NCBI RefSeq assembly: GCF_017874375.1 | Contig: NZ_JAGGLK010000002.1 | Coordinates: forward strand, 248,001-312,000 | Reading direction: 5' to 3' | Origin: Methanohalophilus levihalophilus | GTDB taxonomy: Archaea; Halobacteriota; Methanosarcinia; Methanosarcinales; Methanosarcinaceae | DNA length: 64,000 bases | In this document: in pieces, positions 12,297 through 22,926 of the stretch | Position numbering within the stretch: the first letter of the stretch is position 1 | How the letters are laid out: every line of letters starts with the position of its first letter | The notes under the pieces: model-generated | Seen by the model: the letters and a program-made list of their open reading frames with translations, nothing else | Databases searched by the model: none | Told to the model about the DNA's origin: nothing | Translations under genes and position numbers: made by a program

Positions 12297-13814
12297 TTAT
12301 TTGCGCTTCAGCAAAAACGCAATTATAACCGACAGGATTGAGATGAGTATTCCAGGGCCTGGCATTTTCGGTTTCGTATTTCCTGAGCTGTCGTTGACGT
12401 AGGAGGTATCAGAAAGCTGCTCTCCGGATGACTGGCCGTTATTTTCAGAGTATTCGAGGGCCAAACTGCCGGATGTACTTGAGTCATCTTCGATGGTGTA
12501 GAAGTCGCAATGATCGGAAAGAATTGTGGAGCATCTGAGTTCGACATCATTGTATTCGTCACATTTGATCCATTCTCCTCCACTTTCCCTGTAATACAAT
12601 TCTGCTATTCCCGAATATTCACTTGAATTTGTTGCCATATACCTCTGGAAAAGGTTTCCATAAACCTCTTCAGAGTTATCTGTACTCCATTTGTTGGGGT
12701 AGTAATCACCGTAGAAATCTCCATTCAAGTTGCTGTGTACCAGATTCCCTGAGAAAATATTGTCGTATGCGGATTCCATGCTGATTCCAAACACCTCGTT
12801 GGAGATGGCAGTGTTGTTTGTAAACCGGTTATCTGTTGAATCTCCAGACATTTCAAAACCGTTTTCGGAATTTGAATTTGCAATATTTCCCACAAAAACA
12901 TTGTGCCGTGATTCTCTCAGCTATATCCCGGTGTCATGGTTTGAGATAGCATTATTGTTTACGAGCTCATTGTAATCTGATGATTGAAGGCGGAATCCAT
13001 AGTACCCATTAGAACTGACATTGTTGTTTTTCAGGATGTTGTTGCCGGAGTAGTAGAGATAAATACCATAATCATGGTTTGAGATGATGCTGTTGTTCAT
13101 GAATTCATTGTAATAACATTTCTCGAGGTTGACTCCAAACCAGCTATTCGATTGTGCAATATTATCCGAAAGTATGTTGTAGTCAGATGACGCCAGATCA
13201 ATCCCGTCGTCACCATTTGAAATTAGATTGTTGCCAACAAATGTATTATAATCAGAGTCATGAACCACGAAGGCATCTCCTCCGTTTTCACATGCAATAT
13301 TGTCTACAAACGTGTTGTTATGGGAAAATTGCATGGTCATTCCAAACTTTAAGCTTGAATTGATAATGTTTCCCACAAGCACATTATTATCAGAATTATC
13401 CAGAATGATTCCGTTTTCATTGTGGTTTGCTTCATTATTTCTTATGATGTTATTGTCCGAGGTTACAAAAATACCGCATTTTGATTTTGTGATATGGACA
13501 TTTTCAACAACACATCCATCCGCTTCAATTGCAATGCCATTTGAACTGCCACTGATTACAGTTGGATATCCATTTCCCGAATCACTCCCTTTAAGAATAA
13601 GCCCGGGTTTGTTTAAAGTAACGGCTTCATGGTAAGTTCCACTGTTGACAATTATTGTATCTCCGGTATTTGAATTTTCAATTGTTGCCTGTATGGACTC
13701 CCCGCTGTCAACTAAATATACGGCTGCCGATGCAACCACGGTTATGCCCGGCATAAAAAGAGCAAGCAATATGCCCGGCAAGATGCATTTCAGGAAAGTA
13801 CCCCGCTTTTCCAT
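12297..13814 (-). CDS. NosD-type right-handed beta-helix surface protein with in-frame TAG
   Basis: Read through one TAG (complement of 12921-12923, codon 298), this is a 505-residue secreted protein. Residues 1-30 are a signal peptide (LPGILLALFMPGITVVASA); ~31-400 are parallel beta-helix repeats of the NosD/PbH1 kind, each about 22-24 residues with N-N and GI/GF signatures; the end reads MPGPGILISILSVIIAFLL then RKK-like basic residues, a membrane or archaeosortase-type anchor. The repeat register continues unbroken across TAG: the codon sits where neighbouring coils have Tyr in GIYL (...SNHDTGI, TAG, LRESRHN...). True stop is TAA. Either pyrrolysine is inserted or a Tyr codon has mutated; I favour read-through because the downstream half, including the anchor, is undecayed. 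Confidence 0.72.
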
Positions 13815-13887
13815 GCTTTTGCCTATTTTGAGTTGCTGTATGTATTTAGGCTCTCTCTCCTATTAAACGCTGGTGTTTTGTTTCTGG

Positions 13888-14697
13888 TCACGTGTAGCTT
13901 GTAGCTATCAGTTTTTCCCGAAAGTCATCAAGTTCTTTTTTCAGTTCACTCAGGCAAAACAAATGTTCCGTTAGATGGGGTTTTCCAAGAGCGGTATCAT
14001 AAATCCAGAGTCCGATTTCCTCTGTCCTGTCGAAGTCTTTAATGTTGATTGCTATTTCATTCGATAAAATCACGGACTTTGCTATTGTTTCCAGCATTTC
14101 CATGAGGGAGTTTTTGAGGTTGATGAACAGCTCCGGCTTGAATTCGTTTATCATTGTCCCGAATTCGCTTTCAACTTCCTCCATGTTTCGCAGCAGGAGT
14201 TCTATACCCAGCGGAACCTCGCTTAGCTCCATTAACAAGTCGTTGCTATCGAGAAAGCAGTATATGTGAGGAGAATGGTATTTCTCATCTGCAATCAGTT
14301 TCAGGAATTGTTTTTCGTTTTTCGGGGAAAGGGTCATGATGTTCTGCTGATCTTTCCTGATGCTCTCATACGTGTCATCCAGATCAATTTCCATTTCGAT
14401 GTTTAAACTGACAAGGTCGCTTTTCTGATCAAAAGCCCTTGCAACAACCATCTCGGATATCTGCTTCAGGTCGAAATAGATGTTCTCATCAAGCATCGGA
14501 TTCTCGATTTCTTCAAGAATGGAATCGATCCGGAAATCCAGCTCAAAAAGGATTTTCTCGGAGAGAGCTTTCAGCTTTTCCTTCTCCTTGAACCTCTTTT
14601 CAAGTCTTTTTTGTTTACCCATGGAGTAAACAGCCACAATTAATCCGGCACTTCCAACTATGAGTCCAATAGCTTCACTGGGTTCTATCATCGGCAT
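13888..14697 (-). CDS. hypothetical membrane-anchored protein
   Basis: A 269-residue protein I do not recognise. Residues ~8-26 form one hydrophobic segment (EAIGLIVGSAGLIVAVYSMG), followed by a very basic stretch (KQKRLEKRFKEKEK), which predicts an N-out, C-in anchor with a cytoplasmic body. The rest is helical and heptad-like, rich in Leu, Glu and Lys, with no Cys-metal or nucleotide motifs. ATG at 14697 preceded by CAGGAAA. It lies upstream of the NosD gene on the same strand, 73 bp apart, so co-transcription is possible. TGA stop. Confidence 0.55.
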   Translation of the reverse strand: MPMIEPSEAIGLIVGSAGLIVAVYSMGKQKRLEKRFKEKEKLKALSEKILFELDFRIDSILEEIENPMLDENIYFDLKQISEMVVARAFDQKSDLVSLNIEMEIDLDDTYESIRKDQQNIMTLSPKNEKQFLKLIADEKYHSPHIYCFLDSNDLLMELSEVPLGIELLLRNMEEVESEFGTMINEFKPELFINLKNSLMEMLETIAKSVILSNEIAINIKDFDRTEEIGLWIYDTALGKPHLTEHLFCLSELKKELDDFREKLIATSYT

Positions 14698-14837
14698 TTT
14701 CCTGAACGGTGTATTTGTCCTGAATTGGTACTCATGAACAAAGTGCCGGATTTACTAATGAACTTGGGAAGCTGGGTGAAACTGTTTGGGGGCGGGGGTT
14801 GGTTGGGATTTTCTTGACGGCTGCTGGTATTAAAAGC

Positions 14838-14882
14838 AGTGTTTCATATTTTTCGGCGTACCGTTGTAGGGTTGAGAGTATG
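14838..14882 (-). pseudogene. fragment of a second dCMP deaminase gene
   Basis: On the minus strand this stretch reads YNGTPKNMKHCF, clearly related to YNGAPRNMEHCL of the intact gene at 11770-12240, and the DNA matches over about 45 bp with a one-base deletion after the LST codons. Neither the HAEQNAI nor the PCxxC segment is present nearby, so it is a remnant. It suggests a past duplication or an insertion/excision event between 12.1 and 14.9 kb. Confidence 0.6.
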
Positions 14883-15187
14883 TATAAGGGAATACAACGC
14901 TTGTAAGAGGAGGTTTATAGCGCAGGAAGGAATTGCAGGGTTTTTGAAATTGTAATTTTCCTGTCATCAATTGGCGGAAAATCAAGGAGCTTAAATCTTC
15001 TAATTCTTTAGTTCCAGTGGTAAGTCCAGCTCTTGGAATGAGCGTACTGTTCTATACTGAGGCATATTTCAATTAATTCGGCTCAAAGGCACTATTTTTG
15101 CTTTATGGCCTTAGGAATAGAAAATCTTGCACACAAACAAAAATACATCACAATAGAGGTTATTTTTTTATATGCATATATTAGTAA

Positions 15188-15212
15188 GGACTGGGAATGG
15201 GTATCCCAGTCC
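15188..15212. other. perfect 9-bp hairpin beside a TATA-like sequence
   Basis: GGACTGGGA (15188-15196) and TCCCAGTCC (15204-15212) flank a 7-nt loop. On the plus strand an AT-rich TATATGCATATA box lies ~20 nt upstream; on the minus strand the hairpin lies 24 nt after the stop of the tiny ORF at 15236-15340. It may be the terminator of that ORF or the 5' hairpin of a small RNA. Confidence 0.4.
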
Positions 15213-15235
15213 TGTAATCAGATATTCAAGCAATT

Positions 15236-15340
15236 TTAACATAGATCTAAAAATTCAGATGAGTTGAACAGAACAATAAGGAAAATGATTAATAAATATA
15301 TGATCAAAAAGAAAATGATCATGTACATTTTCACTTTCAC
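15236..15340 (-). CDS. possible 34-residue hydrophobic peptide
   Basis: From a GTG at 15340 the frame encodes a basic start (KVKMYM) followed by one long Ile/Leu/Phe membrane segment and a short FNSSEFLDLC tail, ending in TAA. Size and layout resemble small membrane peptides such as type I toxins, but there is no homology I can name. A GGAAG lies upstream. The high AT content of this interval could by chance give hydrophobic codons, so confidence is low. Confidence 0.25.
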   Translation of the reverse strand: MKVKMYMIIFFLIIYLLIIFLIVLFNSSEFLDLC

Positions 15341-15471
15341 TTTGCTTTCTTCCCACTTTAATAGACAAAGAACATAAAGTAAACTTGATATAATAGGTTA
15401 CAAGTGTAGTGCCTACTTTCCACTAACTTTATAATCAGAAGTTTCTATAGATAAATGGGGATATTCAACTT

Positions 15472-15951
15472 ATGGATCAATCATCAATAAAACTCAAACT
15501 CTTTCTTGATGAATTAAATGTGCCTACAACAATTGCCACTCTCGATGAAAGAAAAACTGTACAAAAAGCAGTTTACATTGGTCAATCTGCAGGTGTAAAC
15601 TTAGGCTATTCATATGGTTGGTATTTGATGGGGCCCTATAGTCCAGAATTAACAAAGGCATATTATTCATTAAATGATTATCTGGATAGTGGGGATGAAG
15701 ATTATAGAAAATTTAAATTGTCAGAGAGCTTGACTCAGAAAATTCATGAACTTAAGTTGATATTGGCTGTTCCATCTGAAAAATTAAAAGTAGACAGTTG
15801 GTTAGAGTTAATTGCTTCAATTGTTTACTTAAAAAAGGAAGAGGGTTTGACACAAGATCTTATAAAATCTAGATTAAATCTTGAAAAGCCACATCTGGTT
15901 GAATATTTTGATGATGGTGTTGAGTTATCAAAGCAATTAAAATTAATTTAA
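15472..15951 (+). CDS. YwgA-like protein (putative partner of HD hydrolase)
   Basis: A 159-residue protein. The segment TVQKAVYIGQSAGVNLGYSY and then YLMGPYSPELTKAYYSL (~28-65) resembles YwgA/Panacea-like proteins, which share a K-x-x-Y-helix and a GPYSxEL motif. The remainder is helical with no enzymatic motif. It lies 10 bp upstream of the HD-domain gene on the same strand and shares its AT-rich codon use, unlike neighbouring housekeeping genes. In Bacillus subtilis a YwgA protein is also encoded beside a COG1078-type HD protein (YwfO), from memory. Role unknown: regulator, adaptor or antitoxin are possible. ATG start, TAA stop. Confidence 0.55.
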   Translation: MDQSSIKLKLFLDELNVPTTIATLDERKTVQKAVYIGQSAGVNLGYSYGWYLMGPYSPELTKAYYSLNDYLDSGDEDYRKFKLSESLTQKIHELKLILAVPSEKLKVDSWLELIASIVYLKKEEGLTQDLIKSRLNLEKPHLVEYFDDGVELSKQLKLI

Positions 15952-15961
15952 TGGCTATTTT

Positions 15962-17452
15962 ATGTCGCTGTTGGCTACACACTTTGAAAAGAAAAAAATC
16001 CATGACCCAGTCCATGGGACAATTTATTTGAGTGATCTTGAAACTCAGGTTATTAATTCGAAAGCATTTCAGCGATTACGGAATATCAAGCAACTAGGAC
16101 TTGCTCATTTTGTCTTTCCGGGAGCTGAATATTCGCGTTTCACTCATAGTTTAGGGGTTTGTCACCTATGTGGCGAGCTCTATGATGCGCGTCTTAAGTT
16201 GGAATTTGATGAAGAAAAAGGATGCGATGGTTAGGATGATCTTATTCGGGCAAAACAGAAAATTCGACTTGCTGGGCTTTTGCATGATATCGGACATTAT
16301 CCATTCTCACATGCTATGGAAGATGCCATAAAAGAGCATTTAAAAAAACCATCCCAGGATTTAGACAACACCACAATAGACGACCTTCATTCGGAGACAT
16401 TTTTAAATCACGAATCAGTTGGAAGGGAAATACTCCGTTTGGATGTGGAAATACGAACTATTCTTGAAAGCAATAACTATGATGTCCATGAAATATACTC
16501 TTTGTTCATCAGTAACGGCGAAAAATTTGATTATGAAGACGAAAAGCAGTTCAATATTTCTAATATAATTAGTTCAGATCTTGATGCTGATCGATTAGAC
16601 TATCTACTTAGATCTGCATATCATCTTGGATTGCCTTATGGCTCTACTGATCTCCAATATATATTGTTACAAATGAAATTAGATGCAGATCAGAATATTT
16701 GCATCGATCCAAAAGCATTAAGAACGGTAGATCATTTTTTGCTATGTAGGTATTTTGATTATTCTCAAGTAATTTATCATAAATCAGTAGTAGCATTTGA
16801 AGAAGTATTAAAGAAAGTTATTCTGTATCTGCTTGAAAATAATGAGCTACAATATATTTCAGAAGAAAATAAATCATTGATCGAAGATAGTGGATGGTAT
16901 GAATATGATGATTTGTATGTCATGAACAAGATCAGAGACTATTACAAAAAAAGTGATCTTGAACCATCTATTCAACTTTTGATAAAATCACTCATAAACC
17001 GGGTTCCTCCAAAAGAAGTTCTAAGGTTGGAGTCAATTCAAGATCGTAACTCTTATTCAAATAAACATATCTCAGCATTTCGTGATTTTAAAAATTGGCT
17101 CCCAGAAATTTCGGAAAAGTTTAGCATTCCTGAGGAAGACGTGATAATCTGGGATCTCAAAGGATTTAGTATTACAAAAATTGGAAGAAGTTTTGAAATT
17201 GAGAGTGACGAATCTGGTATAGACGAAGGAATTCGAAAAACGGTTCGAATTTATGATAGAATTTCAGGTACATCAGTTCCAATTATGCAGAGGGATGATT
17301 CTTTAATGTATTTTTTGTCTGGAAAGGCGCTTTACTCAATCAGACTTTACATCTTATTTGATAAAGACATTATATCATCAGAGGATATGGTGGCCAAAGT
17401 AGATGAGATAAAAAATTACATTCAGAATAAATGGCCAAGAGAATGGAAATAA
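15962..17452 (+). CDS. HD-domain phosphohydrolase (COG1078/dNTPase type) with in-frame TAG
   Basis: Reading TAG at 16232-16234 (codon 91) as sense gives a 496-residue protein. The N-terminus has the family opening HDPVHGTIYLSDLE, then QRLRNIKQLGLAHFVFPGAE and SRFTHSLGVCHLCGEL, which supplies the first metal His. After TAG comes RLAGLLHDIGHYPFSHAME with the HD pair, then DLDADRLDYLLRSAYHLGLPYG with the last Asp. So the metal site H...HD...D is split by the TAG: neither half would be active alone. Family members hydrolyse dNTPs or related nucleotides. True stop TAA. AT-rich codon use suggests acquisition by transfer. Alternative: a recent nonsense mutation. Confidence 0.75.
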
Positions 17453-17625
17453 ACATTCAAACTTGACTTTTCTATGCTAATATCCCGGTTATCTCTCTGA
17501 TTCAAGAAATCTTCAATTCTATTTTCTAGTATTTGGTTTAGCACTTCGTCCATAGACTGTGCTCAACCACTTCACTTGACATATTTTTCCAACAGATCCA
17601 CGAAATCACAATCCAAAGGAAATTG
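17453..17625. other. short interval with a possible decayed minus-strand ORF
   Basis: On the minus strand 17553-17422 could encode 43 residues starting MDEVLNQILENRIEDF, and the same frame upstream holds DFVDLLEKYVK followed by two TGA codons. It overlaps the HD gene by ~31 bp. No family is recognisable; it may be a remnant of a further gene of the accessory patch or chance. Confidence 0.25.
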
Positions 17626-20270: not shown

Positions 20271-21299
20271 ACGCAGGATCTGTGGACTGTCAAATACAGG
20301 CCGGAAACCCTTGACGGCATAGTGGGAAATAAGAAAGCAGTGGATATGCTTCGCCTGGTGGTATCATCAGGTCGCCTGCCACATCTTGTAATCCACGGCC
20401 CCGCAGGGTGCGGCAAGTCCACGGCAGTCCTTGCCCTTGCAAATGAAATGTATGGCGAAGACTACGAGCGCAACCTCACTTATTTCAACGCATCAGATTT
20501 TTTTGATCAGGGAAAACGTTATCTTGTAAGGGATAAGCGTTTCATCCGTTTTCTCGGAACAGACGATCCCAAAAAGATCCAGTCAAGCGTGATTTCCATT
20601 TTCAAGGATCTGGTAAATGAGTATGCTGCAATGGGTTCTCTGGATGCGGATTACAAAATCATTTTCATAGACAGCGCCGAATCCCTCAGGGAAGATGCCC
20701 AGCATGCACTGAGAAGGATAATGGAGCGCTACAGCAAGACGTGCAGGTTCGTTTTTTCCACAACCCAGCCATCCAGACTTATATCGCCCCTGCGATCCAG
20801 GGGTCTGGAACTTTTCTTCACCTACGTCGGGGAAGACGAATTCATAACTTTCCTTAAGGGAGTTGCAGAAGCTGAAAATCTGGATGTATCCGATGATGCA
20901 TGGGATAATCTGTACATGCTATGCAAAGGCAACATTGCATGTGGTCTAAATATACTGCAAACCGTTTCCCTTGAAAGCAGCGGAAAAGTAGACACGGAAA
21001 TGATTTTTACGGCCTCACAGGAAAGTATTCCTGCAGGAGTAAGGGAACTTTACAGGGCAATTCTGAAAAAGGATCTTCCAGCCGCAAGAAAAGCCATCGA
21101 TCCACTTTTAATCAGAGATGGAATGTCAGGAGTTGAAGTAATTAGCCACCTTCACAAGGTCATCTGGGAGGAGGCCTTGCAGCCCGAGGATATTGCTGCA
21201 ATGCTTCGGAAACTTTCAGATGCTGATCTGCTCATACGCAGTGGTGCCAGCGACAGGATACAGCTTGAAGCCCTTGTCACGGAGATGGCGAATGTCTGA
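20271..21299 (+). CDS. replication factor C small-subunit paralogue (RFC2-like), apparent ACG start
   Basis: An AAA+ clamp-loader subunit, ~342 residues. Conserved N-terminus LWTVKYRPETLDGIVGN, Walker A GPAGCGKST (~46), a degenerate Walker B reading IIFIDSAESL rather than DEAD, then LRRIMERYSKTCRFVFSTTQPSRL and an altered SRC-type motif PLRSRG. This fits the second small RFC subunit described in Methanosarcina, which may not hydrolyse ATP in the same way. The conserved N-terminus begins upstream of the first GTG (20322): in frame, ACG at 20271 lies 7 nt after GGAGGG and 3 nt after the secD stop. No ATG, GTG or TTG is available there. TGA stop overlaps elp3. Confidence 0.82.
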   Translation, partial: TQDLWTVKYRPETLDGIVGNKKAVDMLRLVVSSGRLPHLVIHGPAGCGKSTAVLALANEMYGEDYERNLTYFNASDFFDQGKRYLVRDKRFIRFLGTDDPKKIQSSVISIFKDLVNEYAAMGSLDADYKIIFIDSAESLREDAQHALRRIMERYSKTCRFVFSTTQPSRLISPLRSRGLELFFTYVGEDEFITFLKGVAEAENLDVSDDAWDNLYMLCKGNIACGLNILQTVSLESSGKVDTEMIFTASQESIPAGVRELYRAILKKDLPAARKAIDPLLIRDGMSGVEVISHLHKVIWEEALQPEDIAAMLRKLSDADLLIRSGASDRIQLEALVTEMANV

Positions 21300-22926
21300 T
21301 GAAGATGCAAAATTCACAGAGGCCTGTAGGAAGTTAATGGATATTGTCCTGAGTGGTGAAATCGAAGACAAAACCCTTCTAAACCGTAAGAAACTGGCAA
21401 TCTGCAGGGAAATGTCTCTTCAGAAATTGCCACGTAATTCTGATATAATTGCAGTTGCACCACCTGAATTAAAAGAAAAAGTCAAAGCCCTCCTGCGTCG
21501 CAAACCTGTGCGAACCATTTCAGGTGTTGCTGTTATTGCTGTTATGACTTCACCTGCGCCCTGTCCGCATGGAATCTGTGTTCCCTGCCCGGGTGGGCCT
21601 TCTTCCAAATTCGAGTCTCCACAAAGCTATATGGGTCAGGAACCCGCGGCTTTGAGGGCAATAAATTACGATTATGATCCTTACAGGATAGTTAACGGCC
21701 GCCTCTCGCAGCTGGAAGATATAGGACATGATGTTGACAAAGCCGAATTGATAATAATGGGGGGAACCATGCCCTCCCGAAGTCTGGATTATCAGGAATG
21801 GTTTGTAAGACGCTGCCTTGAAGCCATGAATGATTATCGAGGCAAAGAGTGGAGGGAAAGTGTCTTTTCAAGGGGGCAGTTCGTTCCGCTTGAACAGGTA
21901 CAGGTTGCCAATGAAACTGCTTCTGTGCGCAATATCGGGATGACTTTTGAGACTCGTCCGGATTGGGCAACCGAAAACGAAGTAGATAGGATGCTCCAGT
22001 TAGGCGCAACCAAGGTTGAGCTTGGTGTTCAAAGTGTTTTTGATTTCGTTTTATCCCGTATAAAAAGAGGGCATACGGTGGAAGATACCGTAAACGCAAA
22101 CCGGGTTTTACGTGACAGTGGCCTGAAAGTGGGTTTTCATATGATGCCCCGGCTTCCGGGATCGGATAATGAAAGGGACTTACGGGGATTCAAAAAACTT
22201 TTTAATGATCCAGGATTCATGCCGGATTACCTCAAGATCTACCCGACCCTTGTGACGGAAGGTACCGAGCTTAACAAAATGTGGGAGAGTGGGCAATACT
22301 CTCCGCTTTACGATGATGAGGCGATTGAGCTTATTGCGGATTTGAAGGCCATACTTCCCAAATGGGTGAGGCTGCAGCGTATTCAGAGAGATATTCCGGC
22401 AAACCAGATCCTTGCCGGAGTCAGGAAGAGCAATATCAGGCAGCTCGCTTCCGAGAAGCTTGAAGAAAAGGGAGGTACTTGCAGGTGCATCCGGTGTCGG
22501 GAAGTCGGGCACAATATGTTGAAAGGGAAGGAACCTGTTGCTTCGGATATTGAACTTATGGTAGAAAGCTACAAGTCATGCGACGGACTGGAGCATTTCA
22601 TTTCCTTTGAAGATGTGAATCAGGATATTCTGATAGGGTTTTTAAGGCTGCGTTATCCTCACAATCCGCATCGGAAGGAGCTTGAATATTCCGCTCTTGT
22701 AAGGGAATTGCATGTTTATGGTTCACTAATTCCTCCGGGAAAAGATTCCAGGACAGGAAGCTGGCAACATCGGGGATATGGCGCGGAATTGTTGAAAACT
22801 GCTGAAGAGATGTCCCGGGCTGCTGGCTACAGGGAACTCGCAATTATCAGTGGTATAGGCGCAAGGGAATATTACAGGAAATTTGGTTATCGGCTTAAGG
22901 GCCCCTATATGTCCAGGCTTCTCTGA
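21292..22926 (+). CDS. elp3: Elp3: radical-SAM tRNA wobble-uridine modification enzyme
   Basis: 544 residues. Archaeal Elp3 acts alone to place carboxymethyl groups on U34 of tRNAs. Radical SAM part ~75-370 with CPHGICVPCPGG, the C-x9-C-x2-C-type cluster region (~92-104), MGGTMPSRSLDYQEWF and FETRPDWATENEVDRM. Zinc/cluster-like CRCIRCREVGH at ~400. The C-terminal ~430-544 is a GNAT acetyltransferase domain (WQHRGYGAELLKTAEEMSRAAG is its acetyl-CoA-binding loop). ATG at 21292 overlaps the rfc stop by 8 bp with GGAGATGG upstream. TGA stop. Confidence 0.93.
   Translation: MSDEDAKFTEACRKLMDIVLSGEIEDKTLLNRKKLAICREMSLQKLPRNSDIIAVAPPELKEKVKALLRRKPVRTISGVAVIAVMTSPAPCPHGICVPCPGGPSSKFESPQSYMGQEPAALRAINYDYDPYRIVNGRLSQLEDIGHDVDKAELIIMGGTMPSRSLDYQEWFVRRCLEAMNDYRGKEWRESVFSRGQFVPLEQVQVANETASVRNIGMTFETRPDWATENEVDRMLQLGATKVELGVQSVFDFVLSRIKRGHTVEDTVNANRVLRDSGLKVGFHMMPRLPGSDNERDLRGFKKLFNDPGFMPDYLKIYPTLVTEGTELNKMWESGQYSPLYDDEAIELIADLKAILPKWVRLQRIQRDIPANQILAGVRKSNIRQLASEKLEEKGGTCRCIRCREVGHNMLKGKEPVASDIELMVESYKSCDGLEHFISFEDVNQDILIGFLRLRYPHNPHRKELEYSALVRELHVYGSLIPPGKDSRTGSWQHRGYGAELLKTAEEMSRAAGYRELAIISGIGAREYYRKFGYRLKGPYMSRLL

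Follow-up and report, generated by a model that had tools for sequence, protein, structure and literature searches.

The minus-strand frame at 12297-13814 most probably encodes an exported, membrane-anchored beta-helix protein, in which an in-frame TAG was gained from a sense codon, is read as pyrrolysine (Pyl) in competition with the release factor, and is kept by tolerance. The window is the whole stretch of Methanohalophilus levihalophilus DNA that was analysed, 64,000 nucleotides in length, and it belongs to a genome of 2.1 Mb in 5 contigs (G000). The comparison genome G007, Methanohalophilus sp. DJKA121_NP-J24_bin.30, is a sister species of the same genus. The features of the window are as follows.

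12297-13814, minus strand: NosD-like/parallel beta-helix gene, 505 codons when read through TAG (translation, Pfam, TIGR03804, G007 orthologue)
12921-12923, minus strand: in-frame TAG at codon 298, the x of a GI-x-L coil motif (translation, coil register; TTG, Leu, in the sole orthologue)
12915-12932, minus strand: predicted beta-strand 295-300 holding the TAG, with 297 and 299 hydrophobic and 298 probably outward (AlphaFold2 model, hydrophobic alternation)
13722-13814, minus strand: N-terminal signal-peptide-like segment, residues 1-31 (hydropathy; helix 5-20 in the model)
12300-12365, minus strand: C-terminal hydrophobic segment and KRK, residues 484-505, likely membrane anchor (hydropathy, model helix 488-504, conserved in the G007 orthologue)
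15962-17452, plus strand: HD-domain gene split by TAG (16232-16234), which supports TAG as sense

Translation gives a single 505-codon frame with one internal stop, the TAG at codon 298. The frame consists of ATG and 296 codons, the TAG, 207 further codons and then TAA. The probability of 207 stop-free codons after the TAG by chance is about 2e-6 at the local base composition. The read-through protein matched Pfam PF05048 at 138 bits and PF13229 at 136 bits, and the TIGR03804 beta-helix repeat model also matched. Each half alone exceeded the Pfam curated cut-offs for NosD/Beta_helix, with 118.6 and 88.4 bits for the half upstream of the TAG and 28.1 and 29.5 bits for the half downstream. The protein is thus like the NosD-like/parallel beta-helix surface proteins in its above-cut-off matches and its fold. 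It scored 72.8 bits against TIGR04247, under the 300-bit curated cut-off of the true nitrous-oxide reductase maturation NosD, and it differs from those surface proteins in its in-frame TAG and likely C-terminal anchor.

Hydropathy identified an N-terminal hydrophobic segment at about residues 5-22 and a C-terminal one at 484-503, followed by KRK. The signal-peptide-like segment and the anchor segment fall on either side of the TAG. No PGF-CTERM-type or other sorting-signal model matched the protein. Hydropathy and the model helices fit a protein that would be exported and C-terminally membrane-anchored. The first-pass annotation had placed the TAG inside the GI-x-L repeat and had described the repeat spacing and the anchor as intact over about 207 codons past it. 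Both descriptions were borne out, the first by translation and coil register, the second by coil register, hydropathy and the orthologue. The observation of one frame with an internal TAG and unbroken coils is real. Sequencing error was rejected as the source of the TAG because TAG-split genes recur across the genome and the sister species.

The fold is a right-handed parallel beta-helix with repeated coils of 23 residues, as indicated by Pfam, TIGR03804, the coil register and the model. G-hydrophobic-x-hydrophobic motifs begin at residues 204, 227, 250, 273, 296 and 319, which gives a period of exactly 23 over six coils. The TAG occupies the x of the G-I-x-L motif in the coil starting at 296. 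This had been called a tyrosine position. The description holds for the family, where Tyr is the commonest residue at this coil position (62 of 148 sense codons across 16 collected beta-helix frames). It does not hold for the protein itself, whose other coils carry A, F, I, T, D, N, Y, R, E and S, with Tyr in one of ten, nor for the orthologue, which has Leu. Tyr as the ancestral residue at codon 298 is unsupported.

The structure was predicted by AlphaFold2 on an 8-sequence alignment, with K substituted for Pyl at residue 298. A single-sequence model (mean pLDDT 48) was set aside, and the 8-sequence model was used in its place. The pLDDT of the helix was above 90 over most of residues 31-320 and about 97 around strand 295-300, the longest strand of the coil. 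Residue 298 lies in this strand, flanked by I297 and L299. The hydrophobic alternation, rather than the coordinates, suggests that 297 and 299 face inside and 298 faces outside. No relative in the PDB was found by sequence search. The nearest solved folds to the model are alginate epimerases, polysaccharide lyases, tailspikes and NosDFYL, and a carbohydrate- or surface-binding role is therefore plausible.

The second NosD-like gene of the genome has a TAG at the same coil position (GI-TAG-LYFSSNN). This TAG is early in the gene, with 854 codons after it. The shared coil position of the two TAGs is not strong evidence of selection, because that position often has a Tyr codon, from which a single change gives TAG.

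A true orthologue was found in only one of 111 genomes of the family, G007. The remaining matches of the alignment-based scan were distant beta-helix proteins, and a single-protein scan of genome contigs found no relatives in named records. The orthologue shares 65% identity over residues 5-505 and is syntenic with the NosD-like gene, with F420 ligase and deaminase neighbours. Its codon at the TAG site is TTG (Leu), and no frameshift follows the TAG site. The pattern named beforehand as speaking against read-through, Tyr in the orthologue with later frameshifts, was therefore absent. Unlike the conserved functional Pyl sites, the TAG at codon 298 is not conserved in the orthologue. The comparison of substitution rates before and after the TAG, also proposed by the first-pass annotation, gave about equal values within the helix. 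Nei-Gojobori omega between the pair was 0.19 in the mature part upstream of the TAG, 0.21 in the helix downstream and 0.30 in the tail. With one orthologue these values are averages over both lineages and say nothing about selection since the origin of the TAG, which is possibly young. They show that the second half is maintained as coding sequence in the pair, but not that it was still maintained once the TAG was present.

G007 has its own N-terminal TAG in this gene. It was discounted as independent proof of read-through, given a 2-base length difference, a homologous start that is out of frame and the uncertainty of the start. The syntenic place in G007 lacks a block found at about 13876-17616 of the window (ORFs 13888-14697, minus strand, and 15472-15951, plus strand, and the HD gene). 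There, the NosD-like gene is directly followed by counterparts of the window genes at about 17.6 kb.

The genome contains a full pyl set. The pylS gene is located at C2:322309, about 10 kb past the window end, a tRNA-Pyl gene (pylT) with a CTA anticodon adjoins it, and pylB, pylC and pylD lie beside them. The MttB of the genome carries one TAG, as expected. The pylB gene (L049 9243-10298, minus strand) ends in TAG, and the 39 codons to the next TAA or TGA overlap pylC. This ending of pylB is known from M. mazei and M. acetivorans (PMC2933860). A review remarked that Methanohalophilus is without the Pyl system (PMC8211752). The remark does not hold for this genome, which has the pyl genes, and pyl genes had been listed before for M. 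mahii (PMC3639795).

TAG usage was counted over 337 kb of stretches of the genome (16%) in ORFs of at least 80 aa. The 347 ORF ends comprised 168 TAA, 165 TGA and 14 TAG (about 4%). In 160 kb of another species (G002), only 3 of 152 ORFs ended in TAG. As judged by reading the ORF list, where a long frame runs on past TAG it belongs to the protein before the TAG, whereas run-on frames past TAA or TGA are short noise or belong to the next gene. Several genes outside the methylamine methyltransferases follow the same pattern. A D12 DNA methylase gene is split by TAG, and its single domain spans the TAG. An in-frame TAG also splits an HD paralogue (L088, C2:341925-342740). Six other species of the genus have Glu, Asp or Thr in that column, and the sequence after the TAG is conserved to the protein end. 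In G007, TAG lies inside Elp3, Cse1 and a CYTH protein, and also inside the methyltransferase MtmB. The Elp3 of G007 (L051 14946-16652, plus strand) has the TAG where the Elp3 of the window (21193-22926, plus strand) has Glu, and the following 38 codons are nearly identical between the two. Across the genus, 100 NosD matches contained two TAG, zero TAA and zero TGA. In a family-wide Pfam scan, none of the best matches, those listed, had stops, and the scan yields no rate.

Other TAG-split frames were recorded. In G000 these include L060 5440-6747 and 6796-7038, both minus strand (an integrase-like frame without a Pfam match and a second upstream frame), an unnamed protein (L058 11529-12122, plus strand) and a protein with a weak lipocalin-like match (L059 14184-14867, plus strand). 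The Cse1 (CRISPR; L105 13194-14780, plus strand) and CYTH-domain (L098 12529-13047, plus strand) genes of G007 span their TAGs. For the HD gene of the window, the standard ORF call begins late, at 16280, and the first 90 codons are lost.

Together, these cases suggest that the clade uses TAG as a sense codon in many genes with no relation to one another. Some TAGs, such as that of pylB, still look like stops, and termination does not appear to be abolished. The idea that the NosD-like gene is a special case is unsupported. Widespread sense use of TAG in this Methanohalophilus clade deserves more notice than the single gene does.

The full pyl set and the many in-frame TAGs outside the methylamine methyltransferases point to Pyl read-through as the best reading. 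The TAG of the NosD-like gene is most likely read as Pyl, at least in part. The earlier proposal of Pyl on an exported, anchored beta-helix is likewise supported as the best reading of the sequence. A sense codon, probably TTG (Leu), would have become TAG by one T-to-A change at a tolerant surface site. Pyl-tRNA(Pyl) would then read codon 298 as Pyl in competition with the release factor. The products would be a full-length anchored protein with one solvent-exposed Pyl, together with some truncated form. The TAG may persist since the lineage rarely stops at TAG and treats it as a sense codon across many genes, and also since the site would face outward and varies. Pyl insertion, its efficiency, export, side-chain exposure and near-neutrality are what we infer from this pattern. 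The truncated, unanchored protein is probably a by-product, because termination competes with Pyl-tRNA.

Near-neutral substitution appears to fit better than a catalytic or Tyr-mimicking role, because residue 298 is probably outward at a variable coil position and the TAGs of the clade replace unrelated residues. No PYLIS-like stem-loop was found just after the TAG (z = -1.12; 28 of 200 shuffles fold as well). Pyl insertion and termination compete without a required cis element, and PYLIS is not needed (PMC9499178). UAG is both sense and stop in pyl archaea, and an introduced amber codon in M. acetivorans gave 20-30% read-through (PMC2933860). Near-neutral acquisition of Pyl was argued earlier (PMC3639795), and the NosD-like gene would be a new example of it, not a new mechanism.

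It is unlikely, though the idea deserves weighing, that the TAG is a true stop, that is, a recent nonsense mutation leaving a truncated secreted protein of 297 residues and a decaying second half. The orthologue is without the TAG, some genes such as pylB still end in TAG, and there are many NosD-like genes, probably with some redundancy among them, all of which agree with a true stop. However, the 207 codons past the TAG are open, in coil register and free of frameshifts against the orthologue, the pyl genes look working, and TAG also interrupts conserved genes in the clade, Elp3 for one, whose loss would be costly. Nonsense decay should also yield TAA and TGA, and neither was seen among the NosD matches of the genus.

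We give a small chance to a two-product switch. Here the UAG would be retained for its two products: partial termination would release an unanchored helix, and read-through, increasing with Pyl production on methylamines, would give the anchored one. The TAG does separate the exported helix from the anchor, Pyl insertion competes with termination (PMC9499178), and in Acetohalobium it depends on growth substrate (PMC8211752). However, the TAG is not conserved, with Leu in the orthologue. In the second NosD-like gene, truncation at the early TAG would remove most of the protein, and a cut in mid-helix would leave the core uncapped and exposed. That Pyl was selected because its side chain carries an electrophilic imine, which might bind a ligand or form crosslinks on the cell surface, is highly improbable: the probably exposed position on the longest strand and the coil position shared by two genes would suit it, but the orthologue has Leu, the coincidence is cheap at a position so rich in Tyr codons, and in unrelated proteins of the clade TAG stands in place of Glu or in a column of Glu, Asp and Thr, so no Pyl chemistry is shared.

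Read-through by near-neutral drift can be compared with known systems. The Thg1 (tRNA-His guanylyltransferase) of M. acetivorans has a dispensable in-frame amber codon (Heinemann et al. 2009, as described in PMC2933860). As in Thg1, where Pyl is not essential for function, a single in-frame TAG in one species corresponds to an ordinary residue in relatives, in keeping with drift in a pyl-encoding archaeon. Unlike Thg1, which is cytoplasmic and in which Pyl was physically observed, the NosD-like protein is predicted to be exported, and its Pyl is predicted from sequence. The gene shares the in-frame TAG and the pyl machinery with MtmB, MtbB and MttB, present here as the MttB of the genome and the MtmB of G007. 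In those enzymes Pyl is catalytic and its position is conserved across species, whereas the position in the NosD-like protein lacks such conservation, and the protein has no known enzyme activity. An archaeal code in which TAG is generally read as Pyl was reportedly described by Kivenson and colleagues in 2025. The clade resembles such a code in its many in-frame TAG genes across functions and its few TAG stops, but pylB of the genome still ends in TAG. A wider proposal would make UAG a near-general Pyl sense codon in the clade, with surface beta-helices showing Pyl outward at a recurrent coil position and competition at UAG deciding how much of the protein is anchored and how much released; we consider it unlikely.

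Exported repetitive surface proteins join the short list of probable Pyl locations. They do so in a clade where TAG appears to have shifted far from stop toward sense, including in core genes, of which Elp3 is one. Because gene callers split TAG-containing genes, the proteomes of such archaea are misannotated. If surface Pyl is confirmed, it would be a naturally occurring chemical handle on the cell exterior, and it would provide a clean test of the limits of neutral drift in recoding a stop codon.
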